The notes beneath the pieces were generated by a model. That model worked only from the letters and a program-made list of their open reading frames with translations. It was not told where the DNA came from and did no database searches. Source: Owenweeksia sp. (GTDB taxonomy: Bacteria > Bacteroidota > Bacteroidia > Flavobacteriales > Schleiferiaceae). Taken from it: a stretch of DNA of 64,000 bases. The stretch lies in the NCBI GenBank assembly GCA_002695025.1, contig NZNV01000010.1, forward strand, positions 372,001-436,000, read 5' to 3'. Shown here in pieces: positions 1,099 to 11,978 of the stretch. Position 1 is the first letter of the stretch, and each line of letters begins with the position of its first letter. The position numbers and the translations under genes are program-made.

Positions 1099-2976
1099 TT
1101 ATTTTTTCATCACTTTTAACAGTGAGCTTTGGTTATCAAATTTTACTTCAACAAGGTAAACACCGGCTTCTCCCGGTATGTTGAACTGTAAGAGGCTTAA
1201 GCCTTTAAAAGACTTGCTTATAACTTCTTGCCCCAACACATTTCGCACGATAATGAACACATTACTATAGCTTGTACCCAGGTCAATGCTCAACTTACCG
1301 CTGGTGGGGTTAGGGTAAAACGTAAGGCCATTACCAAAGCTGTTTTCCAGAATGCCCACGTTGGCAACCAGTTCGCAAGTTGAAGTATCGGTGCATCCGT
1401 TTTGGGTAACGGCTACAGCATAATTGCCATTAGCGGTAGCTGTGTAGTTTTGGTTGGTTGCGCCACTGATTACCGCAAAACCTTTGCCGCAGTCCAGCCA
1501 TTGATAGGTGGCTCCTGAGCCATTGGCCATCAGAGTTGGGCTGGTATTGGTCACGGAAGTGTCAACCGTTCTAATAGTCAGGTTTACGGTAATCACACTA
1601 TCGCAGCTTGTAGAGCCTGGAATCGTATCCATATAGGTTCCACTGGCTGTCCAGGTATATTTGCTGCTAGGGGAGATATAGCTGTTGCAGGCTATGGGGG
1701 AAATACTGCCGGTTGCATTACCGCACTGACTTATTTTATGGATAAAAACATCCGAACTTCCTGCCGAAGTAAGGTTAAAGGAGGCAGTGCCCGGGTCAAA
1801 GTCGCATGTTCCCCTAAAATGACCGGTGGTATACACATTCCCGGAGGCATCGGTAATTATGGATAAGCCTGCTTCGCTGTTTGCTCCACCCAATTTTTTT
1901 GCCCATACAAAATTACCGGTTGCGTCCAGTTTGGAAATGAAAACATCTATAAGTCCGGCCGAAATAAGGTTGTAGGTACCCGCTCCTGGGTCAAAATCTA
2001 CTGTATCGGCTTCAAAAGAACCGGTGGTATACACATTTCCGGAAGCATCGGTAGTGATTGACGTACCTATATCATGGTGTGTCCCGCCCAATTGCTTCGC
2101 CCACACAAAATTACCGGCCGTATCCAGTTTGGAAATAAAGACATCCATAACTCCTGCCGAAATAAGATTAAAGGTGCCCGTACCGGGGTCAAAGTCGCAT
2201 GTTCCCCTAAAAAAACCGGTGGTATACACATTTCCGGAAGCATCTGTAGTGATGGACCAGGCTTGGACACCTTCTGCCCCACCCAACCTTTTTGCCCACA
2301 TAAAATTACCGGCCGTATCCAGTTTGGAAATAAAGGCATCGCTAAACCCTGCTGAAGTAAGATTAAAAGTAGCGGTAGCCGGATCAAAATCCACCGTTCC
2401 CTGAAAATAACCAGTGGTATACACATTTCCGGAAGCATCTGTAGTGATGGAAAAGGCCTGATCGTTTTCTACCCCACCCCATTTTTTTGCCCAAACAAAA
2501 TTACCGGCCGTATCCAGTTTGGAAATAAAGGCATCGCTAAACCCTGCTGAAGTAAGATTAAAAGTAGCGGTACCCGGATCAAAATCCACTGTTCCCTGAA
2601 AAAAGCCAGTGGTATACACATTTCCGAAAGCATCGGTTGTGATGGACCTGCTTCCATCATAACCTGTTCCCCCTAATTTTTTTGCCCATATAAAATTACC
2701 AGCCGGATCCAGTTTGGAAATAAAGACATCGCTAAACCCTGTTGAAGTAAGGTTGAAGGTAGCGGTACCCGGATCAAAATCCACCTCTTCGTAAAAAGAA
2801 CCGGTGATGTAAAAATTTTGGGAGGAATCGATAGTTGTGGAGTAGCCTACGTCACCGCCAGTGCCTCCCCATTGTTTTACCCACTCAAAGGTTTGAGCGT
2901 TGGCATTGAAGGTTGAAACAAGGGAAGTTAAAGCGGCCAGGGCTGCTGAGGTTAAAAATAGTCTGGCAGTTTTCAT
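1099..2976 (-). CDS. secreted SBBP/beta-propeller-repeat protein with T9SS type A sorting domain
   Basis: 625 aa. It starts with a signal peptide (MKTARLFLTSAALAALTSLV...NANAQ, about 28 residues). Residues about 30-410 are six copies of a 65-residue SBBP-like repeat, each reading roughly 'GNFVWAKKLGG...SITTDASGNVYTTG...VDFDPGTATFNL'. A cysteine-bearing linker (about 415-530) follows, and then an 80-residue tail with FYPNPTSGKL, GVYLVEV and a basic end KVMKK, the type A T9SS sorting signal. The protein should be exported by Sec, passed through the outer membrane by T9SS, and attached to or released from the cell surface. Function is unknown. It lies inside the left unit of the apparent tandem duplication and is absent from the right unit. 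Confidence 0.85.
   Translation of the reverse strand: MKTARLFLTSAALAALTSLVSTFNANAQTFEWVKQWGGTGGDVGYSTTIDSSQNFYITGSFYEEVDFDPGTATFNLTSTGFSDVFISKLDPAGNFIWAKKLGGTGYDGSRSITTDAFGNVYTTGFFQGTVDFDPGTATFNLTSAGFSDAFISKLDTAGNFVWAKKWGGVENDQAFSITTDASGNVYTTGYFQGTVDFDPATATFNLTSAGFSDAFISKLDTAGNFMWAKRLGGAEGVQAWSITTDASGNVYTTGFFRGTCDFDPGTGTFNLISAGVMDVFISKLDTAGNFVWAKQLGGTHHDIGTSITTDASGNVYTTGSFEADTVDFDPGAGTYNLISAGLIDVFISKLDATGNFVWAKKLGGANSEAGLSIITDASGNVYTTGHFRGTCDFDPGTASFNLTSAGSSDVFIHKISQCGNATGSISPIACNSYISPSSKYTWTASGTYMDTIPGSTSCDSVITVNLTIRTVDTSVTNTSPTLMANGSGATYQWLDCGKGFAVISGATNQNYTATANGNYAVAVTQNGCTDTSTCELVANVGILENSFGNGLTFYPNPTSGKLSIDLGTSYSNVFIIVRNVLGQEVISKSFKGLSLLQFNIPGEAGVYLVEVKFDNQSSLLKVMKK
1725..2895 (-). repeat. 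six in-frame tandem repeats of 195 bp inside the SBBP-repeat gene
   Basis: The landmark GGAAGCATC (or a one- or two-base variant) recurs at 1843, 2041, 2236, 2431, 2626 and 2821. Spacing is 195 bp (65 codons) except 198 for the leftmost unit. Neighbouring units near 2310-2385 and 2505-2580 are identical over about 70 bases, implying recent duplication or gene conversion. The period is a multiple of three, so gain or loss of units keeps the frame. Confidence 0.9.
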
Positions 2977-3323: not shown

Positions 3324-3710
3324 TTACGAATTGAATTTTTGAAAAGGAGCCCTTATGCGGCTGTTGGCTTTTACCCTGTAAACTCCATAAGCCCCCGCAA
3401 ACAAGATACCCGCTACCGTAGCCATGGCCCCGGCAATGCTTCCGTTGAGCCAAGTTGCCAGGGCATAACCGCCAGTGGAGACCAGCAGGCTGATGATAGC
3501 GGTATAGAGCAGCATTTTTTTAAGCCGGCCGGTGAGCAGGTAAGCCGCGGCAGGCGGAGCAATGAGCAAGGCTATCACCAGTATGGCACCTACAGATTCA
3601 AAGGAGATCACGGTAGTAAGAGACACTAAACCCATAAACACAAAATGCCAGATGAGAGTGGAAATACCCAGAGCCTTGGCATAATCCGGGTTAAAGGTGG
3701 TGATGAAGAA
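3324..3710 (-). pseudogene. 3' fragment of a metal ABC-transporter permease (second copy)
   Basis: The minus strand encodes a C-terminal piece, from 'GFFITTFNPDYAKALGISTL' to the stop, that matches the end of the intact permease at 7312-8190 almost residue for residue (roughly 87% at the DNA level by eye). It lacks the first half of the protein and any proper start: at about 3710 the frame runs into the antisense of an arsC fragment. Similarity to the intact copy stops at the stop codon on one side and at the junction on the other. It is a dead end product of the duplication described under findings. Confidence 0.85.
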
Positions 3711-3969
3711 ACCAAGACCCAGCCTATTACTGAATCCCAGATAGACCGCATGGCGGAAATGGCCGGTTCCTACGAAGCGCTTTTCAGCCACAGGGCCATG
3801 AAGTACAAAAGCATGGGCTTAAAAGAGAAAACACTTTCTGAGCAGGACTACCGTCAGTTGATCCTGGATGAATACACCTTTCTCAAACGCCCCGTGATTG
3901 TTAATTGACAATCTGATTTTTGTGGGAAACACCAGGAAAGAGGTGGAAGAGGCTAAAAACACCTTATAA
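3711..3969 (+). pseudogene. 5'-truncated, frameshifted second copy of the arsC-like gene
   Basis: Starts abruptly at AAGACCCAGCCTATT, the sequence found at about 468 inside the intact arsC-like gene, and follows it at roughly 90% identity. At about 3900 one extra base breaks the frame after 'RPVIV'; in the next frame the protein continues 'IDNLIFVGNTRKEVEEAKN' and ends at 3967-3969. The CxxC end of the protein is missing. The first 34 bases after the junction are identical to the intact gene. Confidence 0.85.
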
Positions 3970-7311: not shown

Positions 7312-8190
7312 TTAAGAGGGAAGCTTTTGGAAAGAAACTTTAGTGCGCCTGTTTGCCTTGGTTTTATAAACAGCATAAGCCCCGGCAAATAAGATACCTG
7401 CTACGGTAGCCATGGCTCCGGCAATACTGCCGTTGAGCCAGCTGGCCAGGGCGTAACCGCCAATGGAGACCAGCAGGCTGATGATGGCGGTATAGAGCAG
7501 CATCCTTCTCAGCCGCCCGGTAAGCAGGTAAGCCGTGGCAGGTGGAGCAATGAGCAAGGCTACCACCAGTATAGCGCCTACGGATTCAAAGGAGATCACA
7601 GTGGTGAGGGACACCAGGCTCATGAACACAAAATGCCAGATGAGAGTGGAAATACCCAGTGCCTTGGCATAATCCGGGTTAAAGGTGGTGATGAAGAAAC
7701 CTTTGTAGCCAATGCGGGTCACCAGCAGTACGATGAGCGCCATGATCCCGCTGATCCACAACGGACGCGGCCCAAGGATGGTGCCGGTATCGGTGACAAT
7801 AAGGTCCAGCGGCACGTAGGCAATCTCCCCGTAGAGCACACATTCCTGGTCCAGGTCTACCTGCCCGGTAAAGGCAGAGATGAGGATGACCCCGATGGCA
7901 AATAGCCAGGTAAAGGTTACGCCAATGGAAGCATCTTCCTGCAGGCGCGCCTTTTTATGCAGCAGCTCGATCAATACGGTGGTGATCACACCCACCGCAG
8001 CCGCCCCGATGAGCATGGGAATGTTGTTCCGCGAGCCCGAAATGAGAAAGGCAATGACGATACCCGGCAGCACGGAGTGCGAAATAGCATCACCCACCAT
8101 GGCCATCTTCCGGAGTATGAGAAAGGTGCCCAGCGTGCCACAGCTCAGGGCAATAAAAAAGGCGGTGAGTATGATGTAGAACGCGTCCAT
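7312..8190 (-). CDS. metal ABC transporter permease (ABC-3/TroD-like)
   Basis: 292 aa, all membrane, with about eight hydrophobic helices. 'GTLGTFLILRKMAMVGDAISHSVLPG' type sequence at the N-terminus and 'SVGAILVVALLIAPPATAYLLT' near 200 are hallmarks of the ABC-3 permease family for Mn, Zn or Fe. Start at the ATG 8190, whose A overlaps the upstream stop (TGATG), indicating translational coupling; a TTG three bases earlier is less likely. It is the last gene of the metal importer operon. Its 3' part is the source of, or sister to, the fragment at 3324-3710. Confidence 0.9.
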   Translation of the reverse strand: MDAFYIILTAFFIALSCGTLGTFLILRKMAMVGDAISHSVLPGIVIAFLISGSRNNIPMLIGAAAVGVITTVLIELLHKKARLQEDASIGVTFTWLFAIGVILISAFTGQVDLDQECVLYGEIAYVPLDLIVTDTGTILGPRPLWISGIMALIVLLVTRIGYKGFFITTFNPDYAKALGISTLIWHFVFMSLVSLTTVISFESVGAILVVALLIAPPATAYLLTGRLRRMLLYTAIISLLVSIGGYALASWLNGSIAGAMATVAGILFAGAYAVYKTKANRRTKVSFQKLPS

Positions 8191-9482
8191 CAATGTTTCG
8201 GATAAGGTATGGGGCTTTGGTGCGGGTCGGTTTCCGGATACCCCAGTTCGCGTAGCAGTTGCTCTTCGATCTCGGGGGTGATAATGTGCTCCATAGTCTC
8301 CGCATTGGGATGGATATGGTCTGCTTTAAGGCGCATGCGCTCGGTGAGGTACATCTCCCAGAGGCGGTGCAGGCGTACCACGCGTTTTGCTTCTTCGTAT
8401 CCCTTTTCGGAAAGGCGCCAGTTGCTGCCTTCCGGGATGAGGTAAAAATGCCTGCGTAAATGGCGGAGGGCCGTTTTATATTCTACCTCAGAAAAAGCCC
8501 GTTTCTCCAGGATCTCTCCTCGTGAAAAAGCCAGGGTTTCCGGGTTGTGTTCCCGTAGATGGTAGAAGCTCTTCAAAAGGTTTTCGGAAAGGATCTTCCT
8601 GCGGTTCTGCCGTTGTTGACGGATACGAGCTAGCACCCCCCTGCGGGGGGCGAGAAAAAGAGAGAACAATGCCAGGAAGGAGAGGCACATTACGATCCAG
8701 GGGCCTGTGGGCATGTTAGGCGCGGCAAAGGAAATGTAAGAACCTACCAGGCCGGAAAGACCACCTGCTATACCGGCCAATACCATCATCACCACCAGGC
8801 GTTCCGTCCAGGGACGGGCGGTAGCAGCGGGAGTTATCAGTAAAGCAGCCATCAACACTACTCCAACGGATTGAATACCAATGGCTATGGCTAACACAGT
8901 AATGGTGGATAAAATGAATTGTAGACGTTTTACCGGCAGGCCGGATGCCTCAGCAAAATCGGGATTAAAGCTCAGGAGCTTAAACTCCTTAAAGAACAGT
9001 ATCACGGTGATCAGCAGTATCAATGCTACAATGCCGTAGGCAATAAGGTCATTGCGTGTCATGGAAGCGGCCTTACCAAAAAGGAATTGGTCGAGGCCAG
9101 CTTGGTTGCCGGCCCCGGAATGTTGTATAGAGGTTAAAAGTAAAATACCTATTCCAAAGAAAACACTGAGGACCAGTCCAATGGCGGTGTCGGGTTTGAG
9201 CTTGGTGGCTTTGGAGAGATGTTCGATCAATAGCATGGCCAGCCAGCCGGAAAGCAGGGCGCCACCCATCAATACAAAAGGATTTTTGGTGTGGAAGAGC
9301 ATAAAGGCAATGGCAATACCGGGAAGTATGGAGTGGGCCACGGCATCACCCACCAGGGAACGTTTACGCAAAAAGGCAAAGGTGCCCACCGTAGACGCGC
9401 TCATCCCCAGGAAAATGGTCCCAAAGGTGACGGTGCGGACGTTAGGATCCTGAAAGCTCAGAAATTCAAGGAGCTTATCCAT
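8190..9482 (-). CDS. metal ABC transporter permease fused to a DtxR-like regulator domain
   Basis: 430 aa. Residues 1-280 are an ABC-3 permease ('VGDAVAHSILPGIAIAFML', 'SVGVVLMAALLITPAATARP'). Residues about 296-430 are a DtxR-type winged helix plus dimerisation domain: 'LHRLWEMYL' and 'AETMEHI' align with 'KHRLWECFL' and 'AEQLEHI' of the free-standing regulator at 11258-11914, keeping the metal ligands H372, E395, E398 and H399. The start at 9482 has an excellent ribosome site (AGGAGGGG) inside the upstream ATPase gene, which it overlaps by 8 bases; a longer frame to 9512 is unlikely. The cytoplasmic tail may sense metal and tune transport; DNA binding is possible but unproven. Confidence 0.9.
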   Translation of the reverse strand: MDKLLEFLSFQDPNVRTVTFGTIFLGMSASTVGTFAFLRKRSLVGDAVAHSILPGIAIAFMLFHTKNPFVLMGGALLSGWLAMLLIEHLSKATKLKPDTAIGLVLSVFFGIGILLLTSIQHSGAGNQAGLDQFLFGKAASMTRNDLIAYGIVALILLITVILFFKEFKLLSFNPDFAEASGLPVKRLQFILSTITVLAIAIGIQSVGVVLMAALLITPAATARPWTERLVVMMVLAGIAGGLSGLVGSYISFAAPNMPTGPWIVMCLSFLALFSLFLAPRRGVLARIRQQRQNRRKILSENLLKSFYHLREHNPETLAFSRGEILEKRAFSEVEYKTALRHLRRHFYLIPEGSNWRLSEKGYEEAKRVVRLHRLWEMYLTERMRLKADHIHPNAETMEHIITPEIEEQLLRELGYPETDPHQSPIPYPKH

Positions 9483-10290
9483 CACCTTGCCCCTCCTTTT
9501 CTTTAAAATCACTTTCGCGCAACGGAAAATCCTTTTTGGCGATCAGATCGCCAATACGGGAAAGGACGGTAAGACGGCCTCCGTAGGCTTCCTGCAGCAG
9601 ATTGGAGGTAAACACGTCATCCTTAGGTCCGGCTGCCACCAGCCGGGTGTTCAGGAGCACGATCCAATCGAAATATTCATAAGCGGTCTGCAGGTCATGG
9701 TGAACGATGATCACTGTTTTGCCTTCCTGCCTCATTTCGGTAAGCAGTTTGAGAATACTCTCTTCAGTGGCAGCATCCACGCCCACAAAGGGTTCGTCCA
9801 TCAGGTAGAGATCCGCTTGCTGCGCGAGGCTGCGGGCTATGAATACCCGTTGTTGTTGCCCCCCGGAAAGCTGGCTGATCTGCCTGCGGGCGTATTCCAG
9901 CATATTCACTTTTTCCAGCGATTGAGTGGCGATCTCATGGTCGCGGGCGGTTAGGCGTTTAAAGAGATTGTTCTTGCGGTAACGGCCCATTTGTACAACC
10001 TCCAGTACACTGGCGGGGAAATCCCAGTCTACGCTCTCGCGCTGTGGCACGTAGGATACCCGCTCACGCACGTCATCCAGTTTTTGGCCGAACATATTTA
10101 CGTAGCCGCTGTCCGGTTCCATAAGGCCCATAATGTTTTTGAGGAGGGTGGTTTTTCCCGAGCCGTTGGGACCTACAATCCCGATCAACTGTCCCTGCGG
10201 AAGCTGAAAGTCAATATCCCACAATACCGGCTTACGGTTGTAGCTGGCGGTGAGGTTATGTACTTCCAGCGCGGGTGTGTTTATTTCCAT
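9475..10290 (-). CDS. metal ABC transporter ATP-binding protein
   Basis: 271 aa. Walker A GPNGSGKTTLLK (about 40-51), Q-loop 'YVPQRESVDWDFP', signature LSGGQQQR and Walker B LYLMDEPFVGVD are all present, followed by the switch histidine in 'IIVHHDL'. 'SVDWDFP' after the Q-loop is typical of Mn/Zn importers of the TroB/MntB/ZnuC type. It powers the importer with the two permeases downstream and the lipoprotein upstream. It lies 50 bases after the binding-protein gene. Confidence 0.93.
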   Translation of the reverse strand: MEINTPALEVHNLTASYNRKPVLWDIDFQLPQGQLIGIVGPNGSGKTTLLKNIMGLMEPDSGYVNMFGQKLDDVRERVSYVPQRESVDWDFPASVLEVVQMGRYRKNNLFKRLTARDHEIATQSLEKVNMLEYARRQISQLSGGQQQRVFIARSLAQQADLYLMDEPFVGVDAATEESILKLLTEMRQEGKTVIIVHHDLQTAYEYFDWIVLLNTRLVAAGPKDDVFTSNLLQEAYGGRLTVLSRIGDLIAKKDFPLRESDFKEKEGQGDG

Positions 10291-10340: not shown

Positions 10341-11261
10341 CTACTTTAGTGCTTCAACGGTTGTATTTACGTTATGCCTCACCATTCCCACGTAAGTACC
10401 TTCTGGTGTTCCGGCTTCACCCATGGCGTCTGAGAATAATTCTCCTCCCAGTTTAATCGGGTGGCCTTTGCTTTTACATCCCTCAATTACAGCTTCTATG
10501 GAGCGTTTGGGAACCGAGCTCTCCACGAACAAGGCTTTGATCTTATGGTCACTGATAAAATTGACCAGCTCCGTAACGTCCTGCAGGCCGTATTCAGCGG
10601 TGGTAGAGATGCCCTGCAAGCCACGCACCTTTATTGCATACGCTCTCCCAAAATATTTAAAAGCATCGTGGGCAGTTACCATAACCCTTTGATCTTTAGA
10701 AATCTTGTTTATATGAGTAATACAGAAATTATGTAACTCCTCCAACTCGGAGCGGTAGTTTATTTCGTTTTGAATAATGTAATTGGCCCAGCCTGGGTAG
10801 AGCTTTTGCAACTCCCGGGAAATCCCACTCATGGCTTCTACCCAAATGGAAACATCAAACCAGATATGAGGGTCGTGGGCACCCGCAAAATCTGTGGAAT
10901 TGATCAATCTTTGTGGGCTCACCATGTCTCCGGCTGCAATAACCGCTTTTTGGTGTTTCAGTTTCTCAAAAATGGACCCCATTTTACCTTCCAGGTGCAG
11001 CCCGTTATACACTATAGCTTGGGCCTGACTCAACCTTTGGATATCCCCCTGTGTGGCTTTGTAGAGATGTGGGTCCACCCCGGGACCCATCAGTACTTCC
11101 ACTTCAGCACTATCGCCCATAAGGTGCTTAACCATATCGCCCAGCATGCCCGTAGTGCAAACAATCCTGGGTTTTGCCAAGGCATCCGTATTTTGTGGAG
11201 AACCCGTGTTCTGACAGGCCAGCATACTGAAACTGATGAGCAGGAGTAAGATCTTTCTCAT
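10341..11261 (-). CDS. metal ABC transporter substrate-binding lipoprotein (TroA/ZnuA family)
   Basis: 306 aa with a lipoprotein signal (MRKILLLLISFSMLAC, C16). Metal ligands typical of cluster A-I binding proteins are visible: 'GVDPHLYKATQ', 'HDPHIWFDVSIW', 'TAHDAFKYFGRAY' and 'LFSDAMGE', giving a TroA-like His/His/His/Asp set rather than the His/His/Glu/Asp set of PsaA-type Mn proteins. The long His-rich loop of many ZnuA proteins is absent. The metal could therefore be Mn, Zn or Fe; the DtxR-type regulator argues for Mn or Fe. Its start overlaps the regulator's stop (ATGA). Confidence 0.92.
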   Translation of the reverse strand: MRKILLLLISFSMLACQNTGSPQNTDALAKPRIVCTTGMLGDMVKHLMGDSAEVEVLMGPGVDPHLYKATQGDIQRLSQAQAIVYNGLHLEGKMGSIFEKLKHQKAVIAAGDMVSPQRLINSTDFAGAHDPHIWFDVSIWVEAMSGISRELQKLYPGWANYIIQNEINYRSELEELHNFCITHINKISKDQRVMVTAHDAFKYFGRAYAIKVRGLQGISTTAEYGLQDVTELVNFISDHKIKALFVESSVPKRSIEAVIEGCKSKGHPIKLGGELFSDAMGEAGTPEGTYVGMVRHNVNTTVEALK

Positions 11262-11914
11262 TGTACGAAGATGTTTTTACAGGCGATGGAACTTAACTGA
11301 AGCTTTTTCCCGTGTACAGCGATCATCATAGAATGATCAAAGTCCTCTATTTCGAGAATATGAATGTCGTCTCCCAATCCAATGCCTAGCTTAGCGATGT
11401 ATTTTAAAAATTCGGGTGAAGTGTCTTTTACACCCCGTACTTTTACGGTTTGCCCGGGCTTGCAATTATCCAGGCTCAGATCACTGCTGTGAGGAAAAAC
11501 CCCGTTCTTATCTGGTATAGGATCACCATGCGGGTCGTATTTGGGAAAGCCCAGGAATTCCTCCAGGCGGTCGGTGAGCTGCCGCGACTGTATATGCTCC
11601 AACTGCTCTGCGATATCATGTACTTCTTCCCACCCAAAATTGAGTTTATCCACCAGGAAACATTCCCAGAGGCGGTGCTTGCGAACCGTGGAAATGGCCA
11701 CTTTTTCGCCTTCTTCGGTAAGTTCAGCTCCCTGGTATTTCTTGTAATGGAGTACACCTTTTTCCCTTAGCCTTCGCAGCATTTCTGTTACCGTACTGGG
11801 TTTGGTTTCCAAGCTCTCTGAAATAGCATTGGTACTAACTCCTTTCTCCGCATCCTGGGAAAGAAAATAAATGGCTTTGAGATAATTTTCTTCGGTAAAG
11901 GTGTATCTGCTCAT
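11258..11914 (-). CDS. DtxR/MntR-family metal-dependent transcriptional repressor
   Basis: 218 aa, three domains: winged HTH (about 8-65, 'TKPSTVTEMLRRLREKGVL'), dimerisation/metal domain (H80 in KHRLWECFL; E103, E106, H107 in AEQLEHI), and a FeoA/SH3-like C-terminal domain (about 150-218). This is the SirR/IdeR-like architecture, longer than two-domain B. subtilis MntR. It leads and probably represses the operon that follows. A -7 box lies just upstream (11925-11932), and an inverted repeat fitting this family's operators sits in the divergent spacer. Confidence 0.92.
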   Translation of the reverse strand: MSRYTFTEENYLKAIYFLSQDAEKGVSTNAISESLETKPSTVTEMLRRLREKGVLHYKKYQGAELTEEGEKVAISTVRKHRLWECFLVDKLNFGWEEVHDIAEQLEHIQSRQLTDRLEEFLGFPKYDPHGDPIPDKNGVFPHSSDLSLDNCKPGQTVKVRGVKDTSPEFLKYIAKLGIGLGDDIHILEIEDFDHSMMIAVHGKKLQLSSIACKNIFVQ

Positions 11915-11953: not shown

Positions 11954-11978
11954 AAATATAAATTTAGGTTTGCCTAAA
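11941..11978 (+). promoter_or_regulatory. promoter with overlapping DtxR/MntR-type operator
   Basis: -33 TTTG at 11941-11944, 20-base spacer, -7 TAGGTTTG at 11965-11972. The inverted repeat TTTAGG-TTTG-CCTAAA (11963-11978) fits the SirR/MntR-type box TTTAGGTTnGCCTAAA as I recall it, and covers the whole -7 element. A bound regulator would block polymerase. The start codon follows 9 bases later, so a TTG inside the operator (11970) is not the real start. Confidence 0.75.

Follow-up and report, generated by a model that had tools for sequence, protein, structure and literature searches.

A DtxR-derived tail on a metal-importer permease of Owenweeksia sp.: a candidate sensor for feedback control of transport

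The DNA analyzed in this work, a stretch of 64,000 nucleotides (hereafter the window), comes from the genome of Owenweeksia sp. (Schleiferiaceae, Bacteroidota; assembly GCA_002695025.1, contig NZNV01000010.1, positions 372,001–436,000) and contains an operon for an ATP-binding cassette (ABC) metal importer, one permease of which is fused to a C-terminal DtxR-type domain. A permease with such a tail had been proposed in a preliminary description of this DNA and was found exactly where that description had placed it, as confirmed by the open reading frame (ORF), by Pfam matches to ABC-3 and Fe_dep_repr_C and by sequence matches in the Protein Data Bank (PDB). The following features were identified:

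7312–8190, minus strand: second ABC-3 permease, tail-less; its ATG at 8190 overlaps the stop codon of the fusion gene by 1 nt (TGATG)
8193–9482, minus strand: permease with putative sensor tail (the fusion), 430 aa (ORF; Pfam ABC-3 and Fe_dep_repr_C; AlphaFold2 model)
8652–9446, minus strand: ABC-3 permease domain, residues 13–277 (Pfam E 4.6e-68; Foldseek match to PsaBC)
8547–8636, minus strand: linker and alpha-1, residues 283–312, a single predicted helix (AlphaFold2); 21 residues from PxxG to E300
8385–8546, minus strand: degenerate winged helix, residues 313–366, with predicted fold and unconserved DNA-recognition sequence
8202–8384, minus strand: DtxR-type metal-binding/dimerisation domain, residues 367–427, with H372, E376, H391, E395, E398 and H399 (PF02742)
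9475–10290, minus strand: ATP-binding subunit, Mn/Fe importer type (NCBIfam models below cut-offs)
10341–11261, minus strand: periplasmic metal-binding subunit of the ZnuA/MntC/AztC type (NCBIfam models below cut-offs)
11258–11914, minus strand: free regulator of DtxR/MntR type, composed of a helix-turn-helix (HTH), a metal domain and a FeoA domain (MntR is the closest NCBIfam model, scoring below its cut-off)
11963–11978, no strand assigned: perfect palindrome TTTAGG-N4-CCTAAA (TTTAGGTTTGCCTAAA), putative DtxR operator, just upstream of dtxR and the operon

The genes form a tight minus-strand operon in the order dtxR > binding protein > ATPase > fusion > permease 2. The fusion gene, the fourth of them, starts with an ATG at 9482 and stops at 8190–8192; a GTG at 9512 is an alternative in-frame start. 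Its permease part matches PF00950 (ABC-3) with 230 bits against a cut-off of 20.1, and genes for the binding protein and the ATPase stand in the same operon. The match to Fe_dep_repr_C (PF02742) covers residues 359–426 (E 5.2e-24), which is far beyond chance, and SloR, DtxR and IdeR are the PDB sequences that match residues ~300–426. The third, FeoA-like (FeoA/SH3-like) domain, reported as lacking in the preliminary description, is indeed missing from the tail and present in the free DtxR. These two proteins are the only ones with PF02742 in the 4.46 Mb genome; the fusion is not its sole DtxR-type regulator, contrary to Chlamydia as described.

The palindrome upstream of the operon has one exact copy in the genome, at this place, and the reversed pattern used as a control also occurs once. 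When two mismatches were allowed, two matches were found in the window against 4.6 expected from shuffles. A conserved operator is not general, since similar boxes were revealed upstream of only three of 76 free dtxR genes (0 of 76 for the shuffled control, made for one of two patterns).

The metal site of the tail is conserved. Of its residues, the preliminary description had listed H372, E395, E398 and H399 as ligands, which is exact in the present numbering; E376, H391 and H421 are invariant as well. Six of these (H372, E376, H391, E398, H399 and H421) do not vary among 31 aligned fusions, namely that of the window and 30 others from a whole-protein search that are 36 to 87% identical to it. 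The same six are held by 123 of 123 tails in a larger set, where position 395 is Glu or Asp and position 301 is Asn, Asp or His, but this set is partly selected, some loci having been found in a scan of named genomes via patterns over the ligand motifs. It was obtained from 153 fused detections reduced to 124 unique ones, of which 123 were used; 85 free proteins were reduced likewise to 82 and 79. The tails were detected with a tail profile, so that metal-domain-less tails (L032/L041) stand outside the 123, and the truncated L155 was omitted from set A3.

According to passages of PMC4805248, the ligands are Met10, Cys102, Glu105 and His106 in DtxR and Asp8, Glu99, Glu102 and His103 in MntR of Bacillus subtilis. 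The ligand residues of the tail align with those of both proteins, and the tail is MntR-like because Glu stands at the place of Cys102. The metal sensed is presumably Mn(II) or Fe(II). Several tail residues deviate from the free-DtxR consensus (E311, R328, R367, H389, P403, E404 and E406, each in 96 to 117 of 123), and tails differ systematically from free proteins at L371 (Lys in the latter), Y378 (Phe), H389 (Glu) and T396 (Gln). H389 was found in 108 of 120 two-domain tails versus one of three three-domain tails. The idea that it substitutes for a ligand lost with the third domain was dropped, as three such tails are too few to conclude.

The DNA-reading part of the tail, by contrast, is not conserved. 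The preliminary description had regarded the winged helix as kept, which holds for the predicted fold but not for the DNA-recognition sequence: PF01325, the Pfam model of the DtxR HTH, was not detected in the window fusion at E ≤ 1. Across the sets compared, PF01325 was revealed in one of 65 fusions (weakly, E 0.0027) versus 51 of 51 free DtxR proteins, and PF02742 in all 65 and all 51. A model built on half of the free HTHs, with the remaining half as a held-out test, gave the free proteins (n = 79) 106.3 bits as the median and 68.3 as the minimum, and the tails (n = 123) a median of 12.4 and a maximum of 32.6. Free DtxR proteins conserve both the recognition helix (K-A/S-S-V-T-D-M-L-K-K) and the wing (Y-K-Y-K-G); in the tails the same columns are mostly variable, hydrophobic core positions excepted.

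Comparison of the two proteins within single loci gave the same picture. In 44 loci holding both, the mean pairwise identity of the HTH was 33% for tails vs 49% for free proteins and that of the metal domain 67% vs 71%, and the HTH deficit of the tail exceeded its metal-domain deficit in 44 of 44. Even among close relatives, compared in five sets, identity of the tail HTHs is as low as 48–58%, the figures for the same sets being 79–92% for alpha-1, 80–90% for the permease and 88–95% for the metal domain. Two genomes (G259 and G275) whose only PF02742 match is the fusion also have a degenerate tail HTH (2.9 and 4.0 bits). Divergence was expressed as nonsynonymous substitutions (dN) alone; the ratio to synonymous ones (dN/dS) was set aside because synonymous sites were saturated. 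The result for Pontibacter agrees with the above: dN was 0.316 for the tail HTH and 0.069 for the tail metal domain, compared with 0.132 and 0.087 for the free HTH and metal domain. In the window's own three-species set the values were 0.637 for the tail HTH and 0.441 for the free HTH, that is, dN of the free protein is also high, and this comparison may mix free DtxR copies, as G001 holds two such frames. To judge from their sequences, these tails of Bacteroidota are not conserved as repressors, and this point is new.

The fold of the tail was predicted confidently. In the AlphaFold2 model of the whole fusion (65 sequences; mean predicted local distance difference test, pLDDT, 88.6), residues 283–312 form one confident continuous helix that leads from the last membrane segment into alpha-1, followed by a complete winged helix and then by the three helices of the metal domain. 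Modelled alone (mean pLDDT 89.6), the tail superimposes on DtxR (1p92; Z 17.7, 2.3 Å over 136 residues) and on the manganese repressor DR2539 (8pw0; Z 17.4, 2.3 Å over 132 residues). With MntR, DtxR, SloR and DR2539 it shares alpha-1, the winged helix, the metal/dimerisation fold and ligands of MntR type, with Glu at the Cys102 place; it differs from them in being fused to a permease and in lacking both a recognizable PF01325 and the third domain. The permease part matches PsaBC chains in Foldseek (TMt up to 0.92, 30–32% identity). PsaBC and MntB-type manganese permeases have the permease domain in common with the fusion, but their matching chains, 258–290 residues long, correspond to the permease part only. 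In 100 unique fusions both E300 and the PxxG that follows the last helix were found, and in 98 of these the distance between the two is 21 residues; the script left 24 of 124 fusions unmatched, and the two outliers (246 and 281) look like misfires of the pattern.

We then considered the distribution of the fusion. Among 60 genomes (the host's own and its relatives), 29 contain a tail-bearing permease, and 28 of these 29 also hold a DtxR-sized free frame; the free DtxR was not found in the remaining one (G047). One relative (G015, locus L039) has an unfused permease, and another (G039, locus L041) has two permeases with shortened tails, both without the metal domain. When 296 genomes were drawn evenly from the phylum, at least 23 of them, from nine families, showed frames longer than 400 aa; judging by this draw, the fusion has a wide but patchy distribution. 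Of 537 confirmed places in the named-genome scan, the best 80 belong, by title, nearly all to Bacteroidota (Cryomorphaceae, Schleiferiaceae, Pontibacter, Parapedobacter, Roseivirga and others); Chlamydia is absent from the titles of these 80, and viral contigs gave no match. The titles Kuenenia and Actinomyces also appear among them; these two may be mislabelled metagenome bins. The commonest gene order is that of the window, seen in 40 of 124 unique fusions, many of the 124 loci being too short to display every gene.

Several variants of the architecture were met in the course of the analysis. Both operon permeases at L041 (4394–6677) carry a tail that is winged-helix-like by eye and by alignment, with no metal domain. 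Longer fusions of 494–496 aa (L164, L165 and L168) have an extension past the metal domain, in which Pfam recognized FeoA above the cut-off in L165 and below it in L164. A second class of fusions, with ten members in the relatives set (L026–L029 and L033–L038), has tails that end in an LGLC/LGYC..F.P..EIH-like sequence instead of P..DPH..PIPY and stands beside a first-class copy in six of ten genomes; perhaps it serves another metal. Plasmids of Azospirillum, Halomonas and Paracoccus (L174–L176) encode Pseudomonadota metal permeases with C-terminal extensions of ~90–120 residues, in which a Pfam scan did not find the DtxR metal domain. L173 is a free DtxR.

Other features of the window were noted as well. 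The 3′ half of the second permease gene recurs in truncated form at 3324–3791 (minus strand), as a partial duplication or pseudogene (89% identity between 3379–3713 and 7367–7701). This partial copy adjoins a 250-base repeat present at 458–707 and 3707–3956 (87% identity). A gene at 1099–2976 (minus strand) probably encodes a secreted protein and has internal tandem repeats that are 74–82% identical in DNA.

Among the matches listed from the 296-genome draw, 11 frames of 337–351 aa represent a separate architecture:

L163, 2644–3672; L166, L167, L169–L172 and L180–L183: membrane-anchored DtxR-FeoA proteins

They are composed of one N-terminal hydrophobic helix, usually a PxxG, 21 residues, E-D-x-L-K, a winged helix, the metal domain and FeoA. 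The 21-residue spacing is present in ten of the 11. All 11 contain PF02742 and FeoA, with two FeoA stretches in nine by Pfam, and the HTH is below the Pfam cut-off or undetected in ten; seven that were scored on the free-HTH model gave a median of ~21 bits. In 11 of 11 loci checked, the gene lies directly upstream of one that encodes, by similarity, a FeoB G-domain protein (Pfam confirmed FeoB at L163, the one checked), and a separate DtxR-sized protein is encoded in the same locus, at L167 with an Nramp gene in between. The domain order DtxR-FeoA-FeoA is shared with PgMntR of Porphyromonas gingivalis, which binds Mn and Fe. According to passages of PMC4805248, however, PgMntR is highly soluble, has a predicted DNA-binding domain and binds DNA, in contrast to the N-terminal hydrophobic helix of the proteins described here.

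A tree of the metal domain and alpha-1 contained a branch (support 98) that set the 34 free DtxR rows apart; seven Feo-linked proteins formed one group (support 99) on its other, membrane-attached side. It was built from 88 rows and 87 columns with no HTH columns, including 47 of the 123 fused proteins and 34 of the 79 free ones, partly chosen and partly random; given the few columns and the joining of long branches (L072 and the Feo-linked rows), it is only suggestive. Apparently, the last permease helix, the linker and the sensor were transferred together to a second importer. No description of a FeoB-linked anchored DtxR-FeoA protein was found in the open-access literature searched. The abstract of PMC8980893 calls the regulation of FeoB by FeoA-type proteins enigmatic; according to passages of that paper, FeoA proteins fused to DtxR-type domains were set aside from its survey.

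These observations can be joined into the following model. Mn(II) or Fe(II) would enter through the complex of binding protein, permeases and ATPase, as suggested by the families of these proteins. When the metal in the cytoplasm is sufficient, it would bind at H372/E376/H391 and E395/E398/H399 together with N301 of alpha-1, ligands deduced from conservation, and would fix alpha-1 against the metal/dimerisation domain, as in DtxR. Because alpha-1 is the end of a membrane helix, the last transmembrane one extended, the state of the metal site could be passed to the membrane part and/or to the ATPase, and transport would be slowed (trans-inhibition). Control of transcription would rest with the free DtxR, which is encoded in this operon, has a canonical HTH and has the palindrome before the operon as its putative site. 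The same cassette was apparently reused as the membrane-anchored DtxR-FeoA-FeoA protein beside FeoB.

Thus, we consider it on balance probable that the tail is a DtxR/MntR-derived sensor exapted into post-translational feedback control of the importer. Gating is favoured because the metal site is kept, the DNA-reading sequence is lost, the helix is continuous and the Feo-linked cousin exists; that transport control is preferred to gene control is mainly because the cousin independently pairs with a metal importer. From the preliminary description, the permease with its own metallosensor stands, on the evidence of sequence, conservation and predicted structure, and of the two roles suggested there gating fits best and tethering of DNA fits poorly. 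In its logic the model resembles MetNI and ModBC, in which, according to passages of PMC10710835, a C-terminal cytoplasmic domain binds the substrate and stops the importer; there, however, the regulatory domain has another fold and belongs to the ATPase subunit, not to the permease.

A number of observations weigh against this model. The metal domain of the tails has diverged from that of the free proteins too (medians 67.8 vs 125.8 bits), and metal-domain-less tails (L041) and an unfused permease (L039) exist; some importers of this kind can therefore do without metal sensing. The linker is fixed in length but not in sequence, residues 283–295 being 49–83% identical in the five close sets. 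AlphaFold may join helices across linkers, and what was modelled is a single chain without metal, partner or ATPase. A heterodimeric pair of permeases would leave one tail per importer, a puzzle for a dimerising sensor. PF01325 was detected at E ≤ 0.01 in three of the 11 Feo-linked cousins, L163 lying just above the cut-off. R328, an HTH position, is tail-specific and conserved (96 of 123). In its basic character the HTH core of the tail equals that of free DtxR (+3.7 vs +3.1 in mean net charge), so some contact of the tail with DNA or the membrane is possible; since the fold is also confidently predicted, loss of all DNA contact cannot be claimed. This net charge, tried as a discriminator, does not separate fused from free proteins and lends the model no support. 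No functional study of a Bacteroidota fusion (metal binding, transport or ATPase activity) was found in the open-access literature searched.

Of the other explanations, one gives the tail a mainly structural or metal-buffering role: it would stabilise the pair of permeases, or take up metal where the channel opens to the cytoplasm, and would leave the transport rate unchanged. The persistence of winged-helix-like extensions (by eye or alignment) without a metal domain, on both permeases at L041 and on those of the Halomonas and Paracoccus plasmids, where Pfam recognized no DtxR domain, is in line with it, and because such extensions persist on some metal permeases the winged-helix part may be useful alone. 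We nevertheless regard it as unlikely, as two fully conserved ligand clusters and a fixed spacing from the membrane exceed the needs of a stabiliser.

It is also conceivable that cleavage releases the tail, which would then repress its own or other operons in soluble form and in dependence on metal. The preliminary description knew of no functional study of such fusions, which is wrong for the architecture: the permease-repressor fusion YtgC/YtgR (YtgCR, CT069) of Chlamydia trachomatis was studied and, according to passages of PMC5599777 and PMC6504234, is cleaved, and the released YtgR represses its own operon with iron. As described there, YtgCR has the same overall architecture, an ABC metal permease and a C-terminal DtxR-like domain in one chain, and an operon of binding protein, ATPase, permease and permease; permease-DtxR fusions were identified in 11 phyla, as stated in the corresponding part of the review PMC5599777. 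The predicted intact winged-helix fold and the still basic HTH core are compatible with such a role, and a predicted helical linker of fixed length does not exclude cleavage. YtgR, however, is described as binding DNA with iron and as the sole iron regulator identified in its organism, whereas here (YtgR being compared by description only) a separate canonical DtxR is encoded in the operon and the DNA-reading sequence is unconserved, close relatives included. The linker of fixed length, predicted to be helical, also argues against release of the tail, and no canonical HTH is kept in G259 and G275, where the fusion is the only PF02742 protein. We therefore judge a YtgR-like function quite unlikely.

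Sequestration of repressors by sugar transporters provides the model for another mechanism, in which the free DtxR would be captured at the membrane through dimerisation with the tail, and the importer, by its amount or state, would set the level of free repressor. The tail and the free DtxR do share the dimerisation domain and one operon, and they occur together in 28 of 29 fusion genomes. But their systematic domain differences (L371/K, Y378/F, H389/E and T396/Q) argue for separate homodimers, and fusions persist in genomes where the free DtxR was not found (G047, G259 and G275), which leaves the mixed dimer improbable, somewhat more so than cleavage. Tethering of the operon DNA to the membrane is very improbable: the predicted winged-helix fold and the positive charge would suit it, but the recognition helix and the wing are unconserved, for which reason both it and a conserved repressor role were ranked low.

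Beyond the single importer, it can be hypothesized more tentatively, as a possibility short of probable, that Bacteroidota possess a patchily widespread class of membrane-attached, DtxR-derived allosteric sensors. A transferable cassette, consisting of the last permease helix, a 21-residue helical linker, alpha-1, a degenerate winged helix and the DtxR metal domain, would exert feedback control over ABC-3 permeases when fused and over FeoB as the anchored DtxR-FeoA-FeoA protein, and a separate canonical DtxR would handle transcription. No description of non-DNA-binding permease-DtxR fusions was found in the open-access literature searched, and we consider the case for a new regulatory principle reasonable and testable.

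If this is true, the import of Mn or Fe would be controlled twice by two relatives of one protein, at the gene and on the transporter, and the tail would be a clear example of the exaptation of a transcription factor into an allosteric transporter domain. It would also be a warning against annotating every permease-DtxR fusion as a YtgR-like repressor, and the Feo-linked cousin would offer a handle on how FeoA-type proteins regulate FeoB.

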